Below are positions 5,998 to 35,768 of a stretch of 64,000 nt of DNA, piece by piece. The notes under the pieces were generated by a model. That model had not been told where the DNA came from. It did no database searches and saw only the letters and a list, made by a program, of their open reading frames with translations. Each line of letters starts with the position of its first letter. The first letter of the stretch is position 1. The stretch comes from an uncultured Erysipelotrichaceae bacterium. Its GTDB lineage: Bacteria > Bacillota_I > Bacilli_A > Erysipelotrichales > Erysipelotrichaceae. The position numbers and the translations under genes were made by a program. The stretch lies in contig CADBEA010000001.1 in assembly GCA_902793635.1 (NCBI GenBank), forward strand, positions 1 through 64,000, given 5' to 3'.

Positions 5998-6022
5998 AAA
6001 CCCATCTTGTGGGGATGGGTTT
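5998..6022 (-). terminator. Terminator of asnA
   Basis: Nine-base perfect arms AAACCCATC/GATGGGTTT at 5998-6006 and 6014-6022, with a T run on the minus strand. The hairpin overlaps the asnA stop codon. Confidence 0.85.
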
Positions 6023-7031
6023 ACAGCAATGGCATATTGTTCGCGGTACAGATCTCCATCATTTCTTCCGGCCAGATGGATGCCTGCACTTCACCGATAT
6101 GGGCTTTGTTCAGTAACAGCATGCACAGTCTGGACTGGCCGATACCGCCGCCGATCGTATACGGCAGTTCCTGGTTCTGCACCATTTTGTGATACGGCAG
6201 GATAAGACGGCCTTCACAATGGGAAGCCTGACACTGGGTGATGATGGATTTCTCGTCAACACGGATACCCATCGAGGTGATCTCCAGTGCTCTTTCCAGA
6301 GACGGCAGCCAGAACAGCATGTCACCGTTCAGATCCCAGTCATCATAGTCCGGTGCTCTGCCGTCATGCGGACGGCCGCTGCGCTTCAGCGGTTTACCGA
6401 TCTGGGTGATGAAGACACACTTCTTTTCTTTGGTGATGAGGTCTTCCCGTTCCTTCGGTGTCAGATCCGGATACATGTCTTCCAGTTCCTGGGAGGAAAT
6501 GAAGAAGACATCGTCCGCCAGATGACAGACAGCCTGCGGATACTTGTACCAGACCTCATGTTCCATGTGCTTGATGACCTTGAAGATCTCGCGGGCGGTT
6601 TCTTCCAGTGTCGCCATGGTGCGCTCATCCTTGGTAATGACTTTTTCCCAGTCCCACTGGTCAACGTAGACGGAATGCAGGTTGTCGAGAAGTTCGTCAC
6701 GGCGGATCGCGTTCATATTGGTATACAGTCCTTCATGGACATTGAAATGGTATTTCTTCAGGGCTACACGTTTCCATTTGGCCAGCGACTGCACGACTTC
6801 GATGCGTTCGCCCGGCATTTCCTGAATGTCAAAGGAGACAGGACGCTCGATGCCGTTCAGGTTGTCGTTGAGACCAGAACTGCGGGGAACGAACAGCGGC
6901 GCACTGATACGGGTCAGGCCGAGTTCCTTGCCGAATTCTTTCTGGAAGGTGTCACGGATGTATTTGATAGCTTCCTGGGTGTCACGGACAGACAGAACGG
7001 GATCATAGTTTACCGGAATCTGTACTTTCAT
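6021..7031 (-). CDS. asnA: Aspartate--ammonia ligase
   Basis: 336 residues, full length for AsnA, which makes asparagine from aspartate, ammonia and ATP (AMP-forming) with a class II aminoacyl-tRNA-synthetase-like fold. Family landmarks: [20 protein letters not shown] near the N-terminus, [31 protein letters not shown], and the C-terminal ATP-site strand [22 protein letters not shown] lies 7-8 bases before the ATG. It is a monocistronic gene, divergent from the OhrR-type operon. Confidence 0.97.
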
Positions 7032-7064
7032 AATAAATGCCTCCTGTGCATAAACATGTTAAAT

Positions 7065-7073
7065 ATTCTAGCA
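7065..7073 (-). promoter_or_regulatory. Extended -10 of the asnA promoter
   Basis: Minus-strand TGC-TAGAAT, about 35 bases before the asnA ATG. A convincing -35 at normal spacing is not visible. Confidence 0.45.
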
Positions 7074-7108
7074 CAATTCATGATATTTAGAGCAAGATAC
7101 TTGCAACG

Positions 7109-7136
7109 ACAATTATATTGTATAAAATATAATTGT
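7109..7136. promoter_or_regulatory. OhrR-type operator dyad
   Basis: A perfect inverted repeat with 11-base arms (7109-7119 and 7126-7136) and a 6-base centre. The left part, ACAAT-TAT-ATTGT (7109-7121), resembles the OhrR box TACAATT-AATTGTA. The dyad contains TATAAT (7128-7133), a candidate -10, so a bound repressor would occlude the promoter. It sits 20 bases before the flavoprotein ATG, and ohrR is the second gene of that operon, which suggests autoregulation by peroxide. Confidence 0.65.
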
Positions 7137-7155
7137 AAACACAGGAGAATTAATT

Positions 7156-8031
7156 ATGGAAAGATATGATATCGCAATTATCGGCACCGGTCCGGCCGGA
7201 CTGGAAGCAGCCATCACAGCCACAGTAAGAAACAAGAAAATCGTTCTCTTCGGCTCCAAACTCCTCAGTAATAAAATGCAGGTCGTCGATCATCCGATCA
7301 AGAACTATCTTGGTCTGCCTGAAATCACCGGCAAGGAGATGGCCGCGGCCTTCCAGAAACAGCTGGATATCCTCGGCATTGAAGTAACCGAAAAGAAGGT
7401 CACAGTTGTCTATGCCATGGGAGACTACTACAGCATGCAGCTGTCAGACGGTGAATATGCCGAAGCTGAGACAGTCATTCTGGCCACCGGTGTTGTAGCC
7501 GGCAAGCCGTATCCGGGTGAAGAAGCATACCTGGGCAGAGGCGTCAGCTACTGCGCGACGTGCGATGCGCCGCTGTACCGGCAGAAGACAGTTGCCGTCA
7601 TCGGCGGCGGTGCTGATGAAGAAGCGGAAGCGGACTTCCTCGGTGAAGTATGCGAAAAGGTCTATTATTTGCCGCTGTATAAGGATGAACCGCATTTCAC
7701 GCATGACAATATTGTCGTTGTAAGAGAAAAGCCGGTGGAAATCAAAGGTGCTATGAAGGTCAATGAACTTGTGACAGATCAGAATTCCTATACGGTCGAC
7801 GGTGTCTTCATTCTCAGAGCAGCCCAGTTCCCGGGTCAGCTGGTGCCGGGTCTTGAAGCTGAAGGCAATGCTGTCAAAGTGGATCTGCAGATGCGGACCA
7901 ATCTGCCTGGTCTCTTCGCGGCAGGTGATATTGCCGGTCAGCCGTATCAGTACATCAAAGCAGCCGGTCAGGGCAATGTCGCAGCTCTTTCCGCGGTCAG
8001 CTATATCGATGAAAAGAAACGCGCCCGGTAA
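7156..8031 (+). CDS. TrxB-like FAD-dependent pyridine-nucleotide-disulfide oxidoreductase
   Basis: 291 residues with the low-molecular-weight thioredoxin-reductase fold: FAD site GTGPAG (10-15), redox-active CATC (133-136), and a C-terminal FAD motif GLFAAGDIAGQP. The NADPH domain is unusual: the second loop reads GGGADEEAE (150-158) instead of the TrxB GGGNSA pattern, and the HRRxxxR 2'-phosphate site is replaced by LYKDEPHF. It may use NADH, ferredoxin or another flavin donor; this is inference. AGGAG precedes the ATG. It leads an operon with ohrR and a CDF exporter. Confidence 0.85.
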   Translation: MERYDIAIIGTGPAGLEAAITATVRNKKIVLFGSKLLSNKMQVVDHPIKNYLGLPEITGKEMAAAFQKQLDILGIEVTEKKVTVVYAMGDYYSMQLSDGEYAEAETVILATGVVAGKPYPGEEAYLGRGVSYCATCDAPLYRQKTVAVIGGGADEEAEADFLGEVCEKVYYLPLYKDEPHFTHDNIVVVREKPVEIKGAMKVNELVTDQNSYTVDGVFILRAAQFPGQLVPGLEAEGNAVKVDLQMRTNLPGLFAAGDIAGQPYQYIKAAGQGNVAALSAVSYIDEKKRAR

Positions 8032-8052
8032 TTTACAAAGGAGATTGAAGGC

Positions 8053-8490
8053 ATGAACGAATTTGAATTTGACTGCCTGCGTCTGGATCAGCAATTGTGT
8101 TTTCCATTGTATGCGGCAGCACGCAAGGTGACCGGTAAATATACGCCGTTCTTTAAGGAACTCGGTCTGACGTATACCCAGTACATTGTCTTCATGGTTC
8201 TGTGGGAAAAGGACGAGGTGACGGTCGGTGATATCTGCCGCCGGCTCTATCTTGATTCCGGAACGCTGACGCCGTTGCTGAAAAAGATGGAAGAAAAAGG
8301 CTGGCTGCAGCGGACCCGCTCCCATGCGGACGAACGGATCGTCGTTGTCACTTTGACGGAAGAGGGCAGGAAGATGAAGGAACGCTGCCAGTCAATACCG
8401 GCATCCATCAGTCAGTGTATTCATCTGAGTCCGGAAGACGCTGCAGCCCTGTATCGGATCCTGTATCAGATTCTGGAGGAAGACGAATGA
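8053..8490 (+). CDS. ohrR: Organic-hydroperoxide-sensing repressor, OhrR/MarR family
   Basis: 145 residues of MarR fold. LDQQLCFPLYAAAR near the N-terminus matches the OhrR signature with the peroxide-sensing Cys16 (Cys15 in B. subtilis). The winged helix follows (RRLYLDSGTLTPLLKKMEEKG, then RTRSHADERIVVVTLTEEG). Oxidation of the Cys should release DNA and derepress the operon. It has its own AAAGGAG site and its TGA overlaps the next ATG. The upstream dyad at 7109-7136 is its probable target. Unusually, no ohr peroxidase gene is adjacent. Confidence 0.88.
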   Translation: MNEFEFDCLRLDQQLCFPLYAAARKVTGKYTPFFKELGLTYTQYIVFMVLWEKDEVTVGDICRRLYLDSGTLTPLLKKMEEKGWLQRTRSHADERIVVVTLTEEGRKMKERCQSIPASISQCIHLSPEDAAALYRILYQILEEDE

Positions 8491-9593
8491 ACCGCGAAAA
8501 GAAGATTATCAGAACAAGTATTATCGGCATCCTGGCCAATGTATTTCTGGCTGCCTTCAAAGCGGCAGCCGGTATTCTGTCCAATTCCATCGCGGTCGTG
8601 CTGGATGCTGTAAACAACCTCAGTGACGCATTGAGCAGTGTGATCACGATCATCGGCACGAAGCTGGCTTCCCGGCCGGCGGATAAGAAACATCCTTACG
8701 GCTATGGCCGTATCGAATACCTCAGTGCCACGATCATTTCGGTAATCGTTCTCTATGCCGGTATTACATCGTTTGTCGAATCCGGCAAGAAGATCATCCA
8801 TCCGGAAGCACCGGATTATTCCGCTGTCACGCTGATCGTCATCGCGGCCGGTGTGGTGGTCAAGATCATTCTCGGCACCTATGTCAAAAAAGTCGGCAAA
8901 GAGGTGGGCAGTGACGCTCTGGTCAACAGCGGCGAAGACGCCCGGCTGGACGCGGTGATTTCCGCCTCGACTCTGATCGCAGCGGTGATCTATCTGCTGT
9001 TCCACATTTCCCTCGACAGCTGGCTGGGTCTGATCATTTCCGGCGTCATTATCAAAAGCGGTATAGAGATGCTGAGAGACACGATCAGCCGGATCCTCGG
9101 CGAGCGGATCGAAGCGGATTTTTCCAAGGAACTCAAAGCGACTGTATGCTCGGTAGATGGCGCAATCGGCGCCTATGATCTGGTACTGCATGACTACGGT
9201 CCTGACCGCATGCTGGGATCGGTTCATGTTGAAGTGCCGGATTATTTCACAGCTGATCAGCTGGACAGAATGACCAGGGAAATCGAAGACCGGGTGTTCG
9301 AAGAACATCATGTGATCCTGACAGCTGTCGGCTTCTATTCCCAGAATACGAAAAACGACGAAGCTGCCGTTCTGCGGGAAAAAGTCAGGGATATTGTCAT
9401 GTCCTTTGACCATGTCCTGCAGATGCATGGCTTCTACGTGGACAATACACAGAAAGTGATCCGCTTTGACGTCGTCATTGACCTCCTGGCAGATGATGTG
9501 CAGGCTGTTTATACCCAGCTTGTCACGGCTGTGCAGGAGGCTCTGCCGGATTATCAGCTGCAGATCACCCTTGACACTGATACCAGTGACTGA
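8487..9593 (+). CDS. Cation diffusion facilitator, Mn-type
   Basis: 368 residues: a membrane domain with about six helices (residues 10-200) and two consecutive cytoplasmic alpha/beta domains (about 205-290 and 295-368), the second an extension beyond the minimal family. The transmembrane metal site reads N-x-x-x-D in helix 2 (NNLSD region) and D-x-x-x-D in helix 5 (DARLD). That N-D-D-D set is the one known for manganese exporters such as MntE, rather than H-D-H-D for zinc. It exports a divalent cation by proton antiport. It starts at the ATGA overlap with ohrR, linking metal export to peroxide sensing. Confidence 0.88.
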   Translation: MNREKKIIRTSIIGILANVFLAAFKAAAGILSNSIAVVLDAVNNLSDALSSVITIIGTKLASRPADKKHPYGYGRIEYLSATIISVIVLYAGITSFVESGKKIIHPEAPDYSAVTLIVIAAGVVVKIILGTYVKKVGKEVGSDALVNSGEDARLDAVISASTLIAAVIYLLFHISLDSWLGLIISGVIIKSGIEMLRDTISRILGERIEADFSKELKATVCSVDGAIGAYDLVLHDYGPDRMLGSVHVEVPDYFTADQLDRMTREIEDRVFEEHHVILTAVGFYSQNTKNDEAAVLREKVRDIVMSFDHVLQMHGFYVDNTQKVIRFDVVIDLLADDVQAVYTQLVTAVQEALPDYQLQITLDTDTSD

Positions 9594-9616
9594 TGCAGGC
9601 TCTGCCTGCATTTTTT
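9594..9616 (+). terminator. Terminator of the ohrR-CDF operon
   Basis: Arms TGCAGGC/GCCTGCA around TCT, followed by TTTTTT. Confidence 0.9.
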
Positions 9617-9696: not shown

Positions 9697-11466
9697 ATGA
9701 AAAAAATCACAACAATTATTCTGACCGGTCTGATGGCTGTTTCTCTGGCAGCCTGTGCCGGATCAGGAGCTCAGACATCCTCAGGATCTGTCTTTACAGC
9801 GGGAACTTATGAAGCTGACGGAGACGGATTTGCGGGGTCTTCCAATCCTGTTCATGTAAAGGTTACTTTTACGGACAGCACCATTGAATCCATTGAATAT
9901 ACTGCAACAGGTGAAACACCGACGGTCGGCGGCGCGGCGCTGCCGATGCTGGTGGAAAATGTACTGGCTGCCCAGTCGACAAAGATCGACGCGGTCGGCG
10001 GTGCCACCCTCACATCCACAGGTTTCTTCAACGCGGTCAATGATACGATCAAGCAGGCCGGCGCGGATCCGGAAAAACTGGAACCGCAGGCAGCTGCCGA
10101 AAAAGCCGAGGACGTCGAAGCGACATATGACGTTGTCGTCGTCGGTGCCGGTGGTGCCGGTATGACAGCCGCGATTACTGCAGCGCAGAATGGCAAGAAA
10201 GTCATGATCATTGAAAAAGCTGCTGTAGCAGGCGGTAACTCGAGTTACGCGACCGGCGGTATGAACGCTGCCGCGACGCATTATCAGGCCGAGCAGGGTA
10301 TCGAAGACTCCGCTCAGCTGTTCTATGACGATACGATGAAGGGCGGCCACGGCATCAACAATCCGGATCTGGTCCGCACGCTGGCTGAGAATTCCTCTGC
10401 CGCGATCGACTGGCTCGATTCCATCGGTGCTCCGCTGTCCAATGTCGGACAGGCCGGCGGCGCTTCCACGAAGCGTCAGCACCGTCCGGTTGACGATGAA
10501 GGCAAGATCCTTTCTGTAGGTACATTCCTGGTAGCTCACCTCTCCGATACTGTCAACGAGATGGGCATTGACACCATCTTCTCGGCACGTGTCGATGAGA
10601 TCCTGATGGAAGAAGGCAAGGCAGTCGGTGTCCACGCAGTCGGCGCTGACGGCAACCAGATCGTCATCCATGCCAACTCGGTAGTCATCACGACCGGCGG
10701 TTTCGGATCCAATCCGGAAATGATCGTCAAATATCGTCCTGATCTGGAAGGCTATGTATCCACCAACGCACCGACGATCACCGGTGATGCGATTCCGTTC
10801 CTGCAGGCAGTCAACGCGGATTTCGTTGATCTCGAACAGATCCAGATCCATCCGACAGTTGTTCAGGCAGACGGCTCGCTGATATCCGAATCCCTGCGCG
10901 GTGACGGTGCTATCCTGATCAACTCCGAAGGCAAACGTTTCTGCAACGAGATCCTGACCCGTGACGTCGTTTCTGCCCATGTCAATGAACAGCCGGGCAG
11001 CTACGCATGGCTGATCGTTGACCAGAAAATGTTCGACGCATCCAACGTTATTGCCAAGTACCTCGACAGAGGTCTGATGACAAAGTGTGAAACAGTCGAA
11101 GATCTGGCCAAGCTGATGGAAGTCGATGCCGGAACACTGCAGGAAACACTGGCCACATGGACAGCAGCCTGCGCGGCTCAGAACGATGCTGAATTCGGCC
11201 GTGAAGCATTTGACGCTCTGCTCTCCGATCTGTCCGCTGCGCCGTATTACGCAGTCAAGATCGCGCCGGGTATCCATCACTGCATGGGCGGCGTCAAGAT
11301 CAATACCAACGCTGAAGTCATTGACCGGGAAGGAAATGTCATTCCGGGTCTGTACGCAGCTGGTGAAGTTACCGGTGGTGTCCACGGCGGCAACCGTCTG
11401 GGCGGCAACGCTGTCGCAGACTTCGTCGTCTTCGGCCGTATCGCCGGCGAAAACGCATCCAAATAA
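9697..11466 (+). CDS. Extracytoplasmic FMN/FAD flavin reductase lipoprotein (fumarate reductase-like)
   Basis: 589 residues. Signal peptide with lipobox LAAC (Cys20). An FMN-binding domain (about 33-115) carries the flavinylation motif D-A-V-G-G-A-T-L-T (98-106), where ApbE would attach FMN covalently to a Thr. A FAD_binding_2 fumarate-reductase/succinate-dehydrogenase flavoprotein domain (about 123-585) follows, beginning VVVGAGGAGMTAAI and ending GGVHGGNRLGGNAV. Such proteins reduce fumarate, urocanate or related acceptors outside the cell, fed by extracellular electron transfer. The substrate is not decidable. GGAGG lies just before the ATG at 9697. No apbE is in the window. Confidence 0.9.
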   Translation: MKKITTIILTGLMAVSLAACAGSGAQTSSGSVFTAGTYEADGDGFAGSSNPVHVKVTFTDSTIESIEYTATGETPTVGGAALPMLVENVLAAQSTKIDAVGGATLTSTGFFNAVNDTIKQAGADPEKLEPQAAAEKAEDVEATYDVVVVGAGGAGMTAAITAAQNGKKVMIIEKAAVAGGNSSYATGGMNAAATHYQAEQGIEDSAQLFYDDTMKGGHGINNPDLVRTLAENSSAAIDWLDSIGAPLSNVGQAGGASTKRQHRPVDDEGKILSVGTFLVAHLSDTVNEMGIDTIFSARVDEILMEEGKAVGVHAVGADGNQIVIHANSVVITTGGFGSNPEMIVKYRPDLEGYVSTNAPTITGDAIPFLQAVNADFVDLEQIQIHPTVVQADGSLISESLRGDGAILINSEGKRFCNEILTRDVVSAHVNEQPGSYAWLIVDQKMFDASNVIAKYLDRGLMTKCETVEDLAKLMEVDAGTLQETLATWTAACAAQNDAEFGREAFDALLSDLSAAPYYAVKIAPGIHHCMGGVKINTNAEVIDREGNVIPGLYAAGEVTGGVHGGNRLGGNAVADFVVFGRIAGENASK

Positions 11467-32323: not shown

Positions 32324-33247
32324 TTACTTGTGTTCGTTGATATAACGGCATGCGGCCAGGGCAGCAGCGGCACCGTCAGCGGTGGCTGTTGTCACCTGAC
32401 GGACATTCTTGCGCCGGCAGTCACCTGCCACGAAGACACCGGGTGTCTTTGTCAGACACTGTTCGTCGGCATCGAAGTAGCCGTAGGTGTCCAGGTCGGT
32501 GATGTCCTTGAAGGCATCATTTTCCGGGATCAGGCCGATTGCGACGAAGAGTCCGTCACTGAGAACTTCTTCTTTTTCGCCGCTTTCCTTATGCTCGATC
32601 ACGACACCTCGGAACTCGTTGTTTTCTGTCAGCAGCTGATTGATGCGGACACCGGTATAGCTTCTGACGTTGAGGCGGGAGAAGAGAACATCTTGCAGTC
32701 TGGCCTCACCGGTAAATACCGGCAGATCCTGCAGCATAATGACTTCCTTGCACTTTTCCGACAGCAGGATCGCTTCCTGCAGAGCGGAATTGCCGCCGCC
32801 GGCAACACATACGGTTTTGCCGGAATAGAAGTCACCGTCACAGACGGCACAGAACGAAATGCCTTCACCGACGAGGTCATCCTCGCCTTCCAGGCCAAGC
32901 ATGCGGTGCTTGACGCCGGTGGCAAGGATCACTGTCAGAGCTTCGTAAACCGAACCTTCTGCGGTTTTGACCAGTTTGCAGGAACCTTTGTCTTCGATGC
33001 CGCAAACTGTTTCGATCTCGAATTCGGCACCCTGGTCGATGATCTGTCCAAACAGCCGGTCAGCGAATTCGTTGCCGCTGATGGACAGAAAACCAGGAAT
33101 ATTTTCGACTTTCGGGGAATGTGTGATCTGTCCGCCGAAGCCTTCTTTTTCAATCACCAGAACGGTCTTGCCGTTGCGCAGGGCATAGAGTGCGGCCGTC
33201 ATACCGGCGGCACCGCCGCCAACGACAACTACATCATAGGACGGCAT
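32324..33247 (-). CDS. trxB: Thioredoxin-reductase-like flavoprotein
   Basis: 307 residues. FAD site GGGAAGMTAALYA (about 10-22), redox CAVC (133-136) and NAD(P) loop GGGNSALQEA (150-159), then GVFVAGDCRRKNVRQVTTATADG. The segment after the NAD(P) loop reads MLQDLPVFTGEARLQ, lacking the HRRxxxR site that binds the NADPH 2'-phosphate in TrxB, so NADH or another donor is possible. It starts 3 bases after the nrdD stop and so is the natural electron supplier for the redoxin domain fused to NrdD. Symbol is by family. Confidence 0.85.
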   Translation of the reverse strand: MPSYDVVVVGGGAAGMTAALYALRNGKTVLVIEKEGFGGQITHSPKVENIPGFLSISGNEFADRLFGQIIDQGAEFEIETVCGIEDKGSCKLVKTAEGSVYEALTVILATGVKHRMLGLEGEDDLVGEGISFCAVCDGDFYSGKTVCVAGGGNSALQEAILLSEKCKEVIMLQDLPVFTGEARLQDVLFSRLNVRSYTGVRINQLLTENNEFRGVVIEHKESGEKEEVLSDGLFVAIGLIPENDAFKDITDLDTYGYFDADEQCLTKTPGVFVAGDCRRKNVRQVTTATADGAAAALAACRYINEHK

Positions 33248-33250
33248 GGA

Positions 33251-35635
33251 TCAGTTCCTCATCAGCCAGCCTTTGATATCGGAGACACCGCGGTATTTCT
33301 CAAACTCGCCGCCTTTGACAATGACCAGTGTCGGAGCCTGCTTGATGCCGTATTCGGCAACCAGGTCACGCTCTTCGTTGGCATTGAGTGTTGTGTAAGC
33401 AATACCGGCTTTGTCCAGCAGAGCACCGGCTGCCTTGCAGTTCGGGCAGGTCGGTGTCTTGAACAGCAGGATTCTGCTTTCACCTGTGCTCTTTTCCTCG
33501 GACGGGACAACTGTCTCGACCGGGATATCGGCAGGCGCTGCCTTCGGACCTGTGTGGGTCAGTGTGGAGTGACCGATGTTGTAGACTTTACGGTCCTTGA
33601 ACTCCTGGGCTTTGCCGTCGTTCCAGTTCTGAACCGGACGGTAGTAACCGGTGATACGGCTGTAGACTTCTGTCTTCTGACCGCAGTGCGGGCAGATGTA
33701 CTGCTCACCTGTCAGGTAGCCGTGATCCTTACATACGGAGTATGTCGGGGACATGGTGTAATATGGCAGCTTGTAGTTTTCAGCAATCTTGCGGACAAGA
33801 TTCGCGGCTGCTTTCCAGTCCGGCAGCTTTTCGCCGAGGAAGGCGTGGAAGACAGTACCGGAAGTATAGAGTGTCTGCAGGTCATCCTGAATATCAAGAG
33901 CGCTGTATACATCTTCCGTGAAGCCGACCGGCAGGTGGGAAGAGTTTGTATAGTACGGTGTACCGTTCATGTTGGCTGTGATGATATCCGGATAAGCCTC
34001 TTTGTCATGCTTGGCGAAACGGTAAGTAGTGGATTCCGCCGGTGTGGCTTCCAGGTTGTACAGGTCGCCATACTGTTCCTGATAATCGGACAGACGTTCA
34101 CGCATGTGATTCAGAACGTTGCGGCAGAATGCCTGAGCCTTTTCATCAGTCAGGTCTGTACCCAGCCAGTTGGCGTTCAGGCAGGCTTCGTTCATACCAA
34201 CCAGACCGATCGTGGAGAAGTGGTTGTTGAAGGTGCCAAGGTATCTCTTTGTATACGGATAGAGACCCTGTTCAAGAAGCTTGGTGATGACTGTACGCTT
34301 TGTCTTCAGGGAACGTGCTGCGATGTCCATCAGATCATCCAGACGCTTGTAGAAGTCAGCTTCATTCGCTGCCAGGTAGGCAATACGAGGCATGTTGATG
34401 GTGACGACACCGATCGAACCGGTGGATTCACCAGAACCGAAGTAGCCACCGGACTTCTTGCGCAGTTCACGCAGGTCCAGACGCAGACGGCAGCACATCG
34501 AACGCACGTCGCTCGGTTCCATATCGGAGTTGATATAGTTGGAGAAATACGGTGTGCCGTATTTCGCAGTCATTTCAAACAGCAGCTTGTTGTTTTCTGT
34601 TTCACTCCAGTCGAAGTTTCTCGTGATGGAGTAGGTCGGGATCGGATACTGGAAGCCGCGGCCGTTGGCGTCGCCTTCGATCATGATTTCGATGAACGCC
34701 TTGTTGACCATGTCCATTTCCTTCTGGCAGTCACCATAGGTGAAGTCCATCTCCTGGTTGCCGATCAGTGCCGGCAGGTTCTTCAGGTCATTCGGAACGA
34801 CCCAGTCGAGTGTGACGTTGGAGAACGGTGCCTGTGTGCCCCAGCGGCTCGGTGTGTTGACACCGTAGATGAAGGACTGGATGCACTGCTTGACCTGTTT
34901 CTGGCTCAGATTGTCAACTTTGACATACGGTGCCAGATAGGTATCGAAGGAAGAGAACGCCTGAGCGCCGGCCCATTCGTTCTGCATGATACCGAGGAAG
35001 TTGACCATCTGGTTGCAGAGAGTGGACAGATGCTTGGCCGGAGCAGATGTGATCTTGCCCGGAACGCCGCCCAGACCTTCCTGGATCAGCTGCTTCAGAG
35101 ACCAGCCTGCGCAGTAGCCTGTCAGCATCGACAGGTCATGGAGATGAATGGCGGCGCTGCGGTGAGCGTTGGCGATTTCATCGTCATATACTTCACTCAG
35201 CCAGTAGTTGGCGGTGATCGCACCAGAGTTGGAAAGGATCAGACCTCCGACGGAATAGGTGACGGTGGAATTTTCCTTGACACGCCAGTCATTGATGCGC
35301 AGGTAGTTGTCTACCAGATCTTTATAGTTCAGCAGGGTGGAGTTGACGTTACGCACCTTTTCCCGCTGTCTTCTGTAAAGAATATATGCTTTCGCAACAT
35401 CGGAATAACCCGATTCGGACAAAACTTTTTCGACACTGTCCTGAATGTCTTCAACGGTGATCAGACCGTTGTGAATCTTGCTTTCAAAGTCAGAAGTAAC
35501 ATGCAGCGCGATGAGTTCGATCACCGATGGATGATACTCTTTCTGAAGGGCTTCGAAAGCCATTGTGATTGCGGATGAGATCTTGGAAATGTTGAAATCT
35601 ACGATCTTGCCGTCTCTTTTTACAACCTGATACAT
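33251..35635 (-). CDS. nrdD: Anaerobic ribonucleoside-triphosphate reductase with fused redoxin domain
   Basis: 794 residues. An N-terminal ATP-cone (YQVVKRDGKIVDFNISKI), the glycyl-radical barrel (about 110-690), a Cys4 metal site (CKDHG...CPHCG) and the radical site RITGYY with Gly663. About 75 residues beyond the usual end form a glutaredoxin/thioredoxin-like domain: KTPTCPNCKAAGALLDKAG with CPNC at 730-733 and the cis-Pro QAPTLVIV. The extra domain suggests the enzyme draws electrons from a dithiol and the neighbouring TrxB-like protein rather than formate; inference. GGAGAGG precedes the ATG. Confidence 0.95.
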   Translation of the reverse strand: MYQVVKRDGKIVDFNISKISSAITMAFEALQKEYHPSVIELIALHVTSDFESKIHNGLITVEDIQDSVEKVLSESGYSDVAKAYILYRRQREKVRNVNSTLLNYKDLVDNYLRINDWRVKENSTVTYSVGGLILSNSGAITANYWLSEVYDDEIANAHRSAAIHLHDLSMLTGYCAGWSLKQLIQEGLGGVPGKITSAPAKHLSTLCNQMVNFLGIMQNEWAGAQAFSSFDTYLAPYVKVDNLSQKQVKQCIQSFIYGVNTPSRWGTQAPFSNVTLDWVVPNDLKNLPALIGNQEMDFTYGDCQKEMDMVNKAFIEIMIEGDANGRGFQYPIPTYSITRNFDWSETENNKLLFEMTAKYGTPYFSNYINSDMEPSDVRSMCCRLRLDLRELRKKSGGYFGSGESTGSIGVVTINMPRIAYLAANEADFYKRLDDLMDIAARSLKTKRTVITKLLEQGLYPYTKRYLGTFNNHFSTIGLVGMNEACLNANWLGTDLTDEKAQAFCRNVLNHMRERLSDYQEQYGDLYNLEATPAESTTYRFAKHDKEAYPDIITANMNGTPYYTNSSHLPVGFTEDVYSALDIQDDLQTLYTSGTVFHAFLGEKLPDWKAAANLVRKIAENYKLPYYTMSPTYSVCKDHGYLTGEQYICPHCGQKTEVYSRITGYYRPVQNWNDGKAQEFKDRKVYNIGHSTLTHTGPKAAPADIPVETVVPSEEKSTGESRILLFKTPTCPNCKAAGALLDKAGIAYTTLNANEERDLVAEYGIKQAPTLVIVKGGEFEKYRGVSDIKGWLMRN

Positions 35636-35728: not shown

Positions 35729-35768
35729 AAAATGTTTCGTGAATTGTCAACAAGCCACGAAACATTTT
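35729..35768. promoter_or_regulatory. Inverted repeat and promoter of nrdD
   Basis: Perfect 13-base arms AAAATGTTTCGTG/CACGAAACATTTT with a 14-base loop. On the minus strand the loop holds TTGACA, a -35 for nrdD, with TATACG about 15 bases on. A regulator binding the arms would control nrdD. It does not match the NrdR-box pattern I know. Candidate operator. Confidence 0.5.

Follow-up and report, generated by a model that had tools for sequence, protein, structure and literature searches.

The elements of the system described below have been reported in other bacteria. The OhrR box published for B. subtilis is TACAATTNAATTGTA, as quoted in PMC6034001 and PMC3389018, and the footprint of S. avermitilis OhrR spans 28 nt with two 13-nt sites, according to PMC6034001. 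In P. aeruginosa, the gpx-ospR operon is reported to be under the control of an OhrR homologue and to be induced by organic hydroperoxides (PMC4999210), and thioredoxin is stated to re-reduce OhrR in C. violaceum (PMC3469484). The function of the ferredoxin-dependent flavin thioredoxin reductase (FFTR) family is taken here from PMC12796991; structures of C. acetobutylicum FFTR2 (CaFFTR2; 6GNC) and of its thioredoxin complex (6GND) are given in Table A1 of PMC8469568, and the trxA1B1 genes of C. difficile are placed under sigma B in PMC10880999. As to metal exporters of the CDF family, loss of MntE harms the streptococcal oxidative stress response, and an N-D-D-D motif sets the Mn specificity of pneumococcal MntE, a change to H-D-H-D giving Zn (both according to PMC9253540); the ND-DD and DD-DD clades of the family are described as Mn clades in PMC5703985. 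Hence, gpx under an OhrR homologue, reset of OhrR by thioredoxin, FFTR, and Mn-type CDF exporters are each known singly. A combination of all of them, FFTR and a Mn-type CDF exporter included, behind a single OhrR box was not found among the titles and beginnings of abstracts retrieved from a collection of open PMC papers, which is weak evidence of absence, since the search was limited to open papers.

Organization of the operon and its promoter

The locus studied lies in a window of 64,000 nucleotides of an uncultured Erysipelotrichaceae bacterium (assembly GCA_902793635.1, contig CADBEA010000001.1, positions 1 to 64,000), the genome of which is available as a draft with a completeness of 95.4% and a contamination of 3.55%. 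Downstream of a dyad, three genes on the plus strand form an operon: the first (7156-8031) codes for FFTR, the second (ohrR; 8053-8490) for OhrR, and the third (8487-9593) for a CDF exporter. The last 4 nt of ohrR are shared with the start of the CDF gene. A consensus scan placed a terminator-like hairpin of nine pairs, followed by a T-run, at the end of the operon (9592-9612, plus strand). An earlier note, made from the sequence of the window, had proposed an OhrR-type operator, ohrR as second gene, and a CDF exporter with an N-D-D-D site in one operon, all of which was supported. The divergent neighbor of the operon is asnA (6021-7031, minus strand), which keeps this place in many relatives. 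Behind the hairpin lies a gene for a flavocytochrome-c/fumarate-reductase-like FMN and FAD protein (9703-11466), the start of which is also found behind the operon in locus L002.

The dyad (7109-7136) reads ACAATTATATT-GTATAA-AATATAATTGT, with perfect arms of 11 bases around a spacer of six. When the intergenic region of 124 nt (7032-7155) was subjected to 2000 dinucleotide shuffles, 0.25% of them contained such an 11-6-11 dyad. Over the whole window, 15 dyad matches were counted in eight places, whereas 20 shuffles yielded 0.3 on average, and several of the other places resemble terminator hairpins. The promoter retrieved by a consensus scan (7101-7128, plus strand) consists of a -35 hexamer TTGCAA (7101-7106) and a -10 hexamer TAAAAT (7123-7128), with a spacer of 16 nt; the predicted OhrR operator, a strandless dyad of 28 nt, lies over the promoter spacer and the -10 hexamer. 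The most suitable view of the operator is that of a pair of 13-nt boxes (7109-7121 and 7124-7136); when extended to a 15-mer, each agrees with the OhrR box of B. subtilis at 12 of its 14 fixed positions. In size and layout, the operator equals the OhrR site of S. avermitilis described in PMC6034001. Similarly, the relatives carry TTGACA or TTGAAA (-35) and TATACAAT or GATAAAAT (-10) at a spacing like that of the window promoter. The 28-base, OhrR-like dyad with 11-base arms that had been noted on the promoter therefore stands: its arms are perfect, the -10 hexamer is covered, and it is conserved in relatives. By its sequence, this predicted OhrR-type operator appears to control the operon promoter, presumably through binding of OhrR.

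The OhrR protein and its gene neighborhood

The product of ohrR is a putative organic-hydroperoxide sensor of the MarR family and exceeds the cut-off of the Pfam MarR model. It retains the N-terminal sensor cysteine of helix 1 (Cys16) and has a second cysteine, Cys122. Its best solved relative is OhrR of B. subtilis (1z91; E 1.4e-35), ahead of SarZ and MgrA; ranked after 1z91 comes a second OhrR structure, presumably from Xanthomonas. The NCBIfam OhrR model NF052638 gave 154 bits, under its cut-off of 200; this model (TransRegOhrRVib), by its name, looks to have been made for one subgroup.

A search for OhrR in 149 genomes, including that of the window, returned 65 strong loci (E < 1e-28) in 61 genomes. 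The set was enlarged by 80 named loci of Erysipelotrichaceae, Lachnospiraceae, and other Clostridia and by 23 loci (L166-L188) from a scan of the phylum, which gave matches at E <= 1e-25 in 32 of 392 genomes; the phylum-scan loci L162-L165, which repeated the first search, and three matches without a locus were left out. Removal of identical OhrR cores reduced the 168 loci entered to 153 distinct ones. The sensor cysteine (Cys16) is kept in 152 of the 153, and Tyr30 and Tyr41, which are taken here to form the peroxide pocket, are kept in all of them. A second cysteine (Cys122) is present in 98 loci and absent in 55; it aligns with a cysteine of the OhrR structure 2pfb, presumably the second Cys of a two-Cys type OhrR.

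Neighbors were counted in same-strand clusters with gaps of less than 200 nt, and the counts among the 153 loci are lower bounds, because some contigs end inside the cluster. Counted in this way, ohrR is accompanied by gpx in 101 loci, a CDF gene in 46, FFTR in 36, a thioredoxin gene (trxA) in 15, a flavodoxin-like gene in 15, and another TrxB gene in 12; at least one of these partners occurs in 135 loci and none in 18. The gene trxA is situated between FFTR and ohrR in six loci (L097, L098, L113, L115, L138, and L139), and a flavodoxin-like gene precedes ohrR in L082/L002, L093, L100 (in two pieces there), and L110. A Pfam check of examples found Gpx on two, thioredoxin on one, and a flavodoxin domain on one, the last match being weak (29.6 bits versus a cut-off of 27.5). 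Cys35, Cys63, and Cys81 of Gpx are conserved in 99, 97, and 99 of the 101 sequences, respectively. Furthermore, a CDF gene of the ND-DD type recurs behind ohrR in both FFTR-first and gpx-first operons of several families. The earlier note had linked the sensing of peroxide with disulfide reduction and a CDF exporter in this one operon; the association is conserved across many genomes.

Operator sites in relatives and in the rest of the genome

A strict pattern, ACAATNTATATTGT, which is one base longer than the site, gave no match, the window site included. A loose 13-nt pattern was judged too unspecific (39 matches versus 20 in a reversed control); as these were too many matches, a site model was built instead. 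A template scan with the window dyad retrieved 40 loci with at least 16 of 22 matches and a spacer of 6, at -38 to -60. The alignment (A1) and the model made from it (R1) comprise 39 sites of relatives; the window genome is not among them, nor is locus L064, the match of which seemed to be offset.

In the own genome (2.43 Mb), R1 ranked 7109-7136 first (E 2.3e-6), a site on the gpx gene second (G000:C16; 11.6 bits, E 1.17), and a site on contig C53 third (9.2 bits, E 6.8). The position weight matrix of A1 scored the window site at 36.2 and the gpx site at 25.1, inside the range of held-out sites; the gpx site, not significant alone (E 1.17), rests on its place and on the relatives. When this matrix was applied to 111 held-out loci, 80 beat all 100 shuffles and 92 were at or below 5 in 100. 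Many loci without partner genes are among the 31 that fail to beat all shuffles, and none of six loci with ohrR and another TrxB gene, from the second family of the order, did so (L047, L049-L051, L053, and L056). The dyad scan across the genome and its relatives, which had been proposed as a check, thus put the window site first in its own genome and found the box ahead of ohrR in most held-out relatives.

Among 70 genomes of the genus, 57 had an R1 match at E <= 0.5. Outside ohrR operons, all 31 sites listed at E <= 0.05 were considered, opposite-strand repeats of one place being counted once. Fifteen of these are located about 21-62 nt upstream of gpx, three upstream of trxA, two upstream of a flavodoxin-like gene (followed by gpx in one case), and one upstream of a ferritin-like gene, gpx being found 700 nt further on; one lies at a contig end and nine are unlabelled. 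Random sites, it may be inferred, would seldom fall beside gpx, trxA, and flavodoxin genes. The ferritin-like gene (L251:776-1288, minus strand; genome G003) lies between the OhrR-type box and gpx. As to the window genome itself, trxA is absent from the operon, and the sole clear thioredoxin gene (on contig C8) has no R1 site among those listed.

These results bear on the idea that the palindrome arose by chance in A+T-rich DNA, or that it belongs to the promoter and is not bound by OhrR, which could be entertained as the region is rich in A+T and promoter-like hexamers overlap the dyad. Its frequency of 0.25% in shuffles, its first rank genome-wide in an independent model, its conserved place in relatives, and the presence of the box at unlinked gpx and thioredoxin genes make this highly improbable and argue for an OhrR operator.

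No OsmC/Ohr protein (PF02566) was found in the window genome (95% complete) with a search that was positive in 12 of 14 control genomes. The predicted targets are indeed no Ohr peroxidase, as had been claimed, but a regulon devoid of any peroxidase was rejected, as gpx carries the second-best operator site and, being next to ohrR in 101 of the 153 loci, is the commonest partner. The earlier note had held that the same box on an ohr gene elsewhere would speak against its reading; in spirit, this is what was found, with gpx in the place of ohr. OhrR hence appears to have a clear predicted regulon in a genome without Ohr.

Alternatively, this OhrR may be a broader regulator of thiol or oxygen stress, of the MgrA/SarZ/AsrR type, with FFTR and the CDF exporter serving general redox and metal balance. 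Its solved relatives include MgrA and SarZ, AsrR of E. faecium is reported to control many genes, including gpx (PMC3410868), and in C. difficile, according to PMC10880999, the FFTR genes act in the responses to oxygen and to stress. Yet, B. subtilis OhrR is nearest, before SarZ and MgrA, and the predicted regulon is small, consisting mostly of gpx, thioredoxin, flavodoxin, FFTR, and CDF genes, and not global. This alternative is therefore considered unlikely, and an organic-hydroperoxide sensor is preferred.

A predicted ferredoxin-type thioredoxin reductase as first gene

The first gene (7156-8031, plus strand) codes for a full-length relative of FFTR with a CATC active site, which is found in all 36 operon FFTRs. 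Its phmmer matches were 6gnc (8.1e-91), 6gna (6.1e-82), presumably labelled as C. acetobutylicum FFTR2 too, and 6gnd (1.8e-80), versus 8e-35 for the best classical thioredoxin reductase. The HRR-type motif is the NADPH motif of thioredoxin reductases; YYLPLYKDE stands in its place here, and the NADPH motif of the second domain is missing. An NADPH-type TrxB was rejected as identity of this gene, clostridial FFTR being far closer (307.6 bits to 6gnc versus 123.9 bits to the best classical TrxB). The noncanonical TrxB-like flavoprotein of the earlier note is indeed no classical TrxB, but it is not merely TrxB-like, as it falls in the known FFTR family. Judged from its sequence, the enzyme is predicted to use ferredoxin rather than NADPH.

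Elsewhere in the window, the minus strand (32324-35635) codes for a TrxB-like flavoprotein, which reached 280.9 bits with TIGR01292 (cut-off 343, hence not attained), and next to it for an anaerobic ribonucleotide reductase (NrdD) with a redoxin-like domain at its C-terminus. Upstream of nrdD, a perfect long inverted repeat (AAAATGTTTCGTG ... CACGAAACATTTT; 35729-35768) may be a regulatory site.

A CDF-family metal exporter as third gene

The third gene (8487-9593, plus strand) codes for a predicted metal exporter of the CDF family (TIGR01297; 188.6 bits, cut-off 82.35), with Pfam Cation_efflux (PF01545) over the cut-off and a ZT_dimer domain followed by an extra C-terminal region. Its A-site is N43-D47-D151-D155. 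The MntE equivalog model NF052621 gave 92.6 bits, far under its cut-off of 500; consequently, membership of MntE was rejected and the protein was not filed as such. Of the Mn-type exporter claimed earlier, the N-D-D-D A-site stands, and it is this site alone that makes the metal probably Mn(II), the weakest step of the mechanism below. The window genome contains a second ND-DD CDF gene (L194, C8:9769-10347), with no OhrR-type box among the sites listed.

Export of Fe(II) or of another metal, instead of Mn(II), would lower Fenton-active iron under peroxide stress and might be the more obvious logic; it would fit the ferritin-like gene before gpx at one operator-linked locus (L251) as well as the low MntE score. 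It is nevertheless rather unlikely, though plausible, given that the A-site is ND-DD in 43 of the 44 readable operon CDFs and that N-D-D-D and the ND-DD/DD-DD clades are tied to Mn (PMC9253540 and PMC5703985, respectively). Mn(II) is hence retained as the probable substrate. Still another explanation is that the CDF gene is a passenger, standing behind ohrR by chance or translational coupling without any role in the response to peroxide, as it occurs in only 46 of the 153 OhrR loci and the second ND-DD CDF gene of the genome has no listed site. This is improbable, since the ND-DD subfamily recurs behind ohrR, whether FFTR or gpx comes first, in several families and the CDF start overlaps the ohrR stop. 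Accordingly, the exporter is kept as part of the response.

Proposed mechanism

It is proposed, with a probability of about 0.8, that OhrR represses an electron chain from ferredoxin through FFTR and thioredoxin to Gpx, together with a metal (probably Mn) exporter. The basis consists of the gene order, the protein families, the key residues, the conservation of the operator, and the second site on gpx, from which OhrR binding, induction, electron flow, and the metal are predicted. An OhrR dimer on 7109-7136, or two if both boxes are filled, would cover the spacer and the -10 hexamer, and bound OhrR would keep the FFTR-ohrR-CDF operon and the separate gpx off. An organic hydroperoxide would oxidise Cys16, a disulfide with Cys122' being probable, upon which OhrR would leave the DNA and FFTR, the CDF exporter, and the separate Gpx would be made. 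Electrons would then pass from ferredoxin (or flavodoxin) via FFTR to thioredoxin and on to Gpx, which would reduce the hydroperoxide; this chain is suggested by the family functions and by operons in which gpx, FFTR, and thioredoxin genes are combined. Gpx proteins of the Cys35/63/81 kind typically use thioredoxin. At the same time, the CDF exporter would remove divalent metal ions from the cell, Mn(II) being the most likely substrate. Lastly, thioredoxin would re-reduce OhrR and reset the switch; as this is reported for OhrR of C. violaceum (PMC3469484), a product of the regulon may reset its own sensor.

If true, some anaerobes could power the removal of organic peroxides from ferredoxin, not NADPH. 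A Mn-type exporter would moreover be tied to a peroxide sensor, an unexpected metal link, because Mn is usually thought to be protective under peroxide. Among the Erysipelotrichaceae and their relatives in the gut, a peroxide-sensing repressor appears to run thioredoxin-based peroxide removal, and in many genomes a metal exporter too, through one recognizable kind of operator. A wider interpretation, for which the chances are judged slightly below even, is that in ferredoxin-rich gut anaerobes OhrR commands an NADPH-independent defence against organic hydroperoxides, which takes the place of Ohr and runs from ferredoxin or flavodoxin to Gpx, and simultaneously triggers Mn(II) export as a built-in element of the response, the sensor being reset by reduced thioredoxin.

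Comparison with known systems

The type of switch is known, and the set of target genes seems to be undescribed. As in the OhrR/ohrA system of B. subtilis, there is an N-terminal sensor Cys, there are two conserved Tyr residues, and boxes of the TACAATTNAATTGTA type lie over the promoter; in contrast, the predicted targets here are gpx, FFTR, thioredoxin, and CDF genes, no OsmC/Ohr was found in the window genome, and many members possess a second Cys. The gpx-ospR operon of P. aeruginosa, as described in PMC4999210, likewise joins an OhrR homologue and gpx, whereas the operon studied here additionally holds FFTR and the metal exporter, and the gpx of the window genome is on another contig. The first gene product shares its family, the CxxC motif, FAD, and the absence of an NADPH motif with CaFFTR2 and with TrxB1 and TrxB4 of C. 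difficile, although trxA1B1 of the latter is under sigma B and the present operon under an OhrR-type operator. Similarly, streptococcal MntE is a CDF exporter with an N-D-D-D A-site, but the exporter of the window is under the MntE cut-off and is tied to a sensor of organic hydroperoxides.
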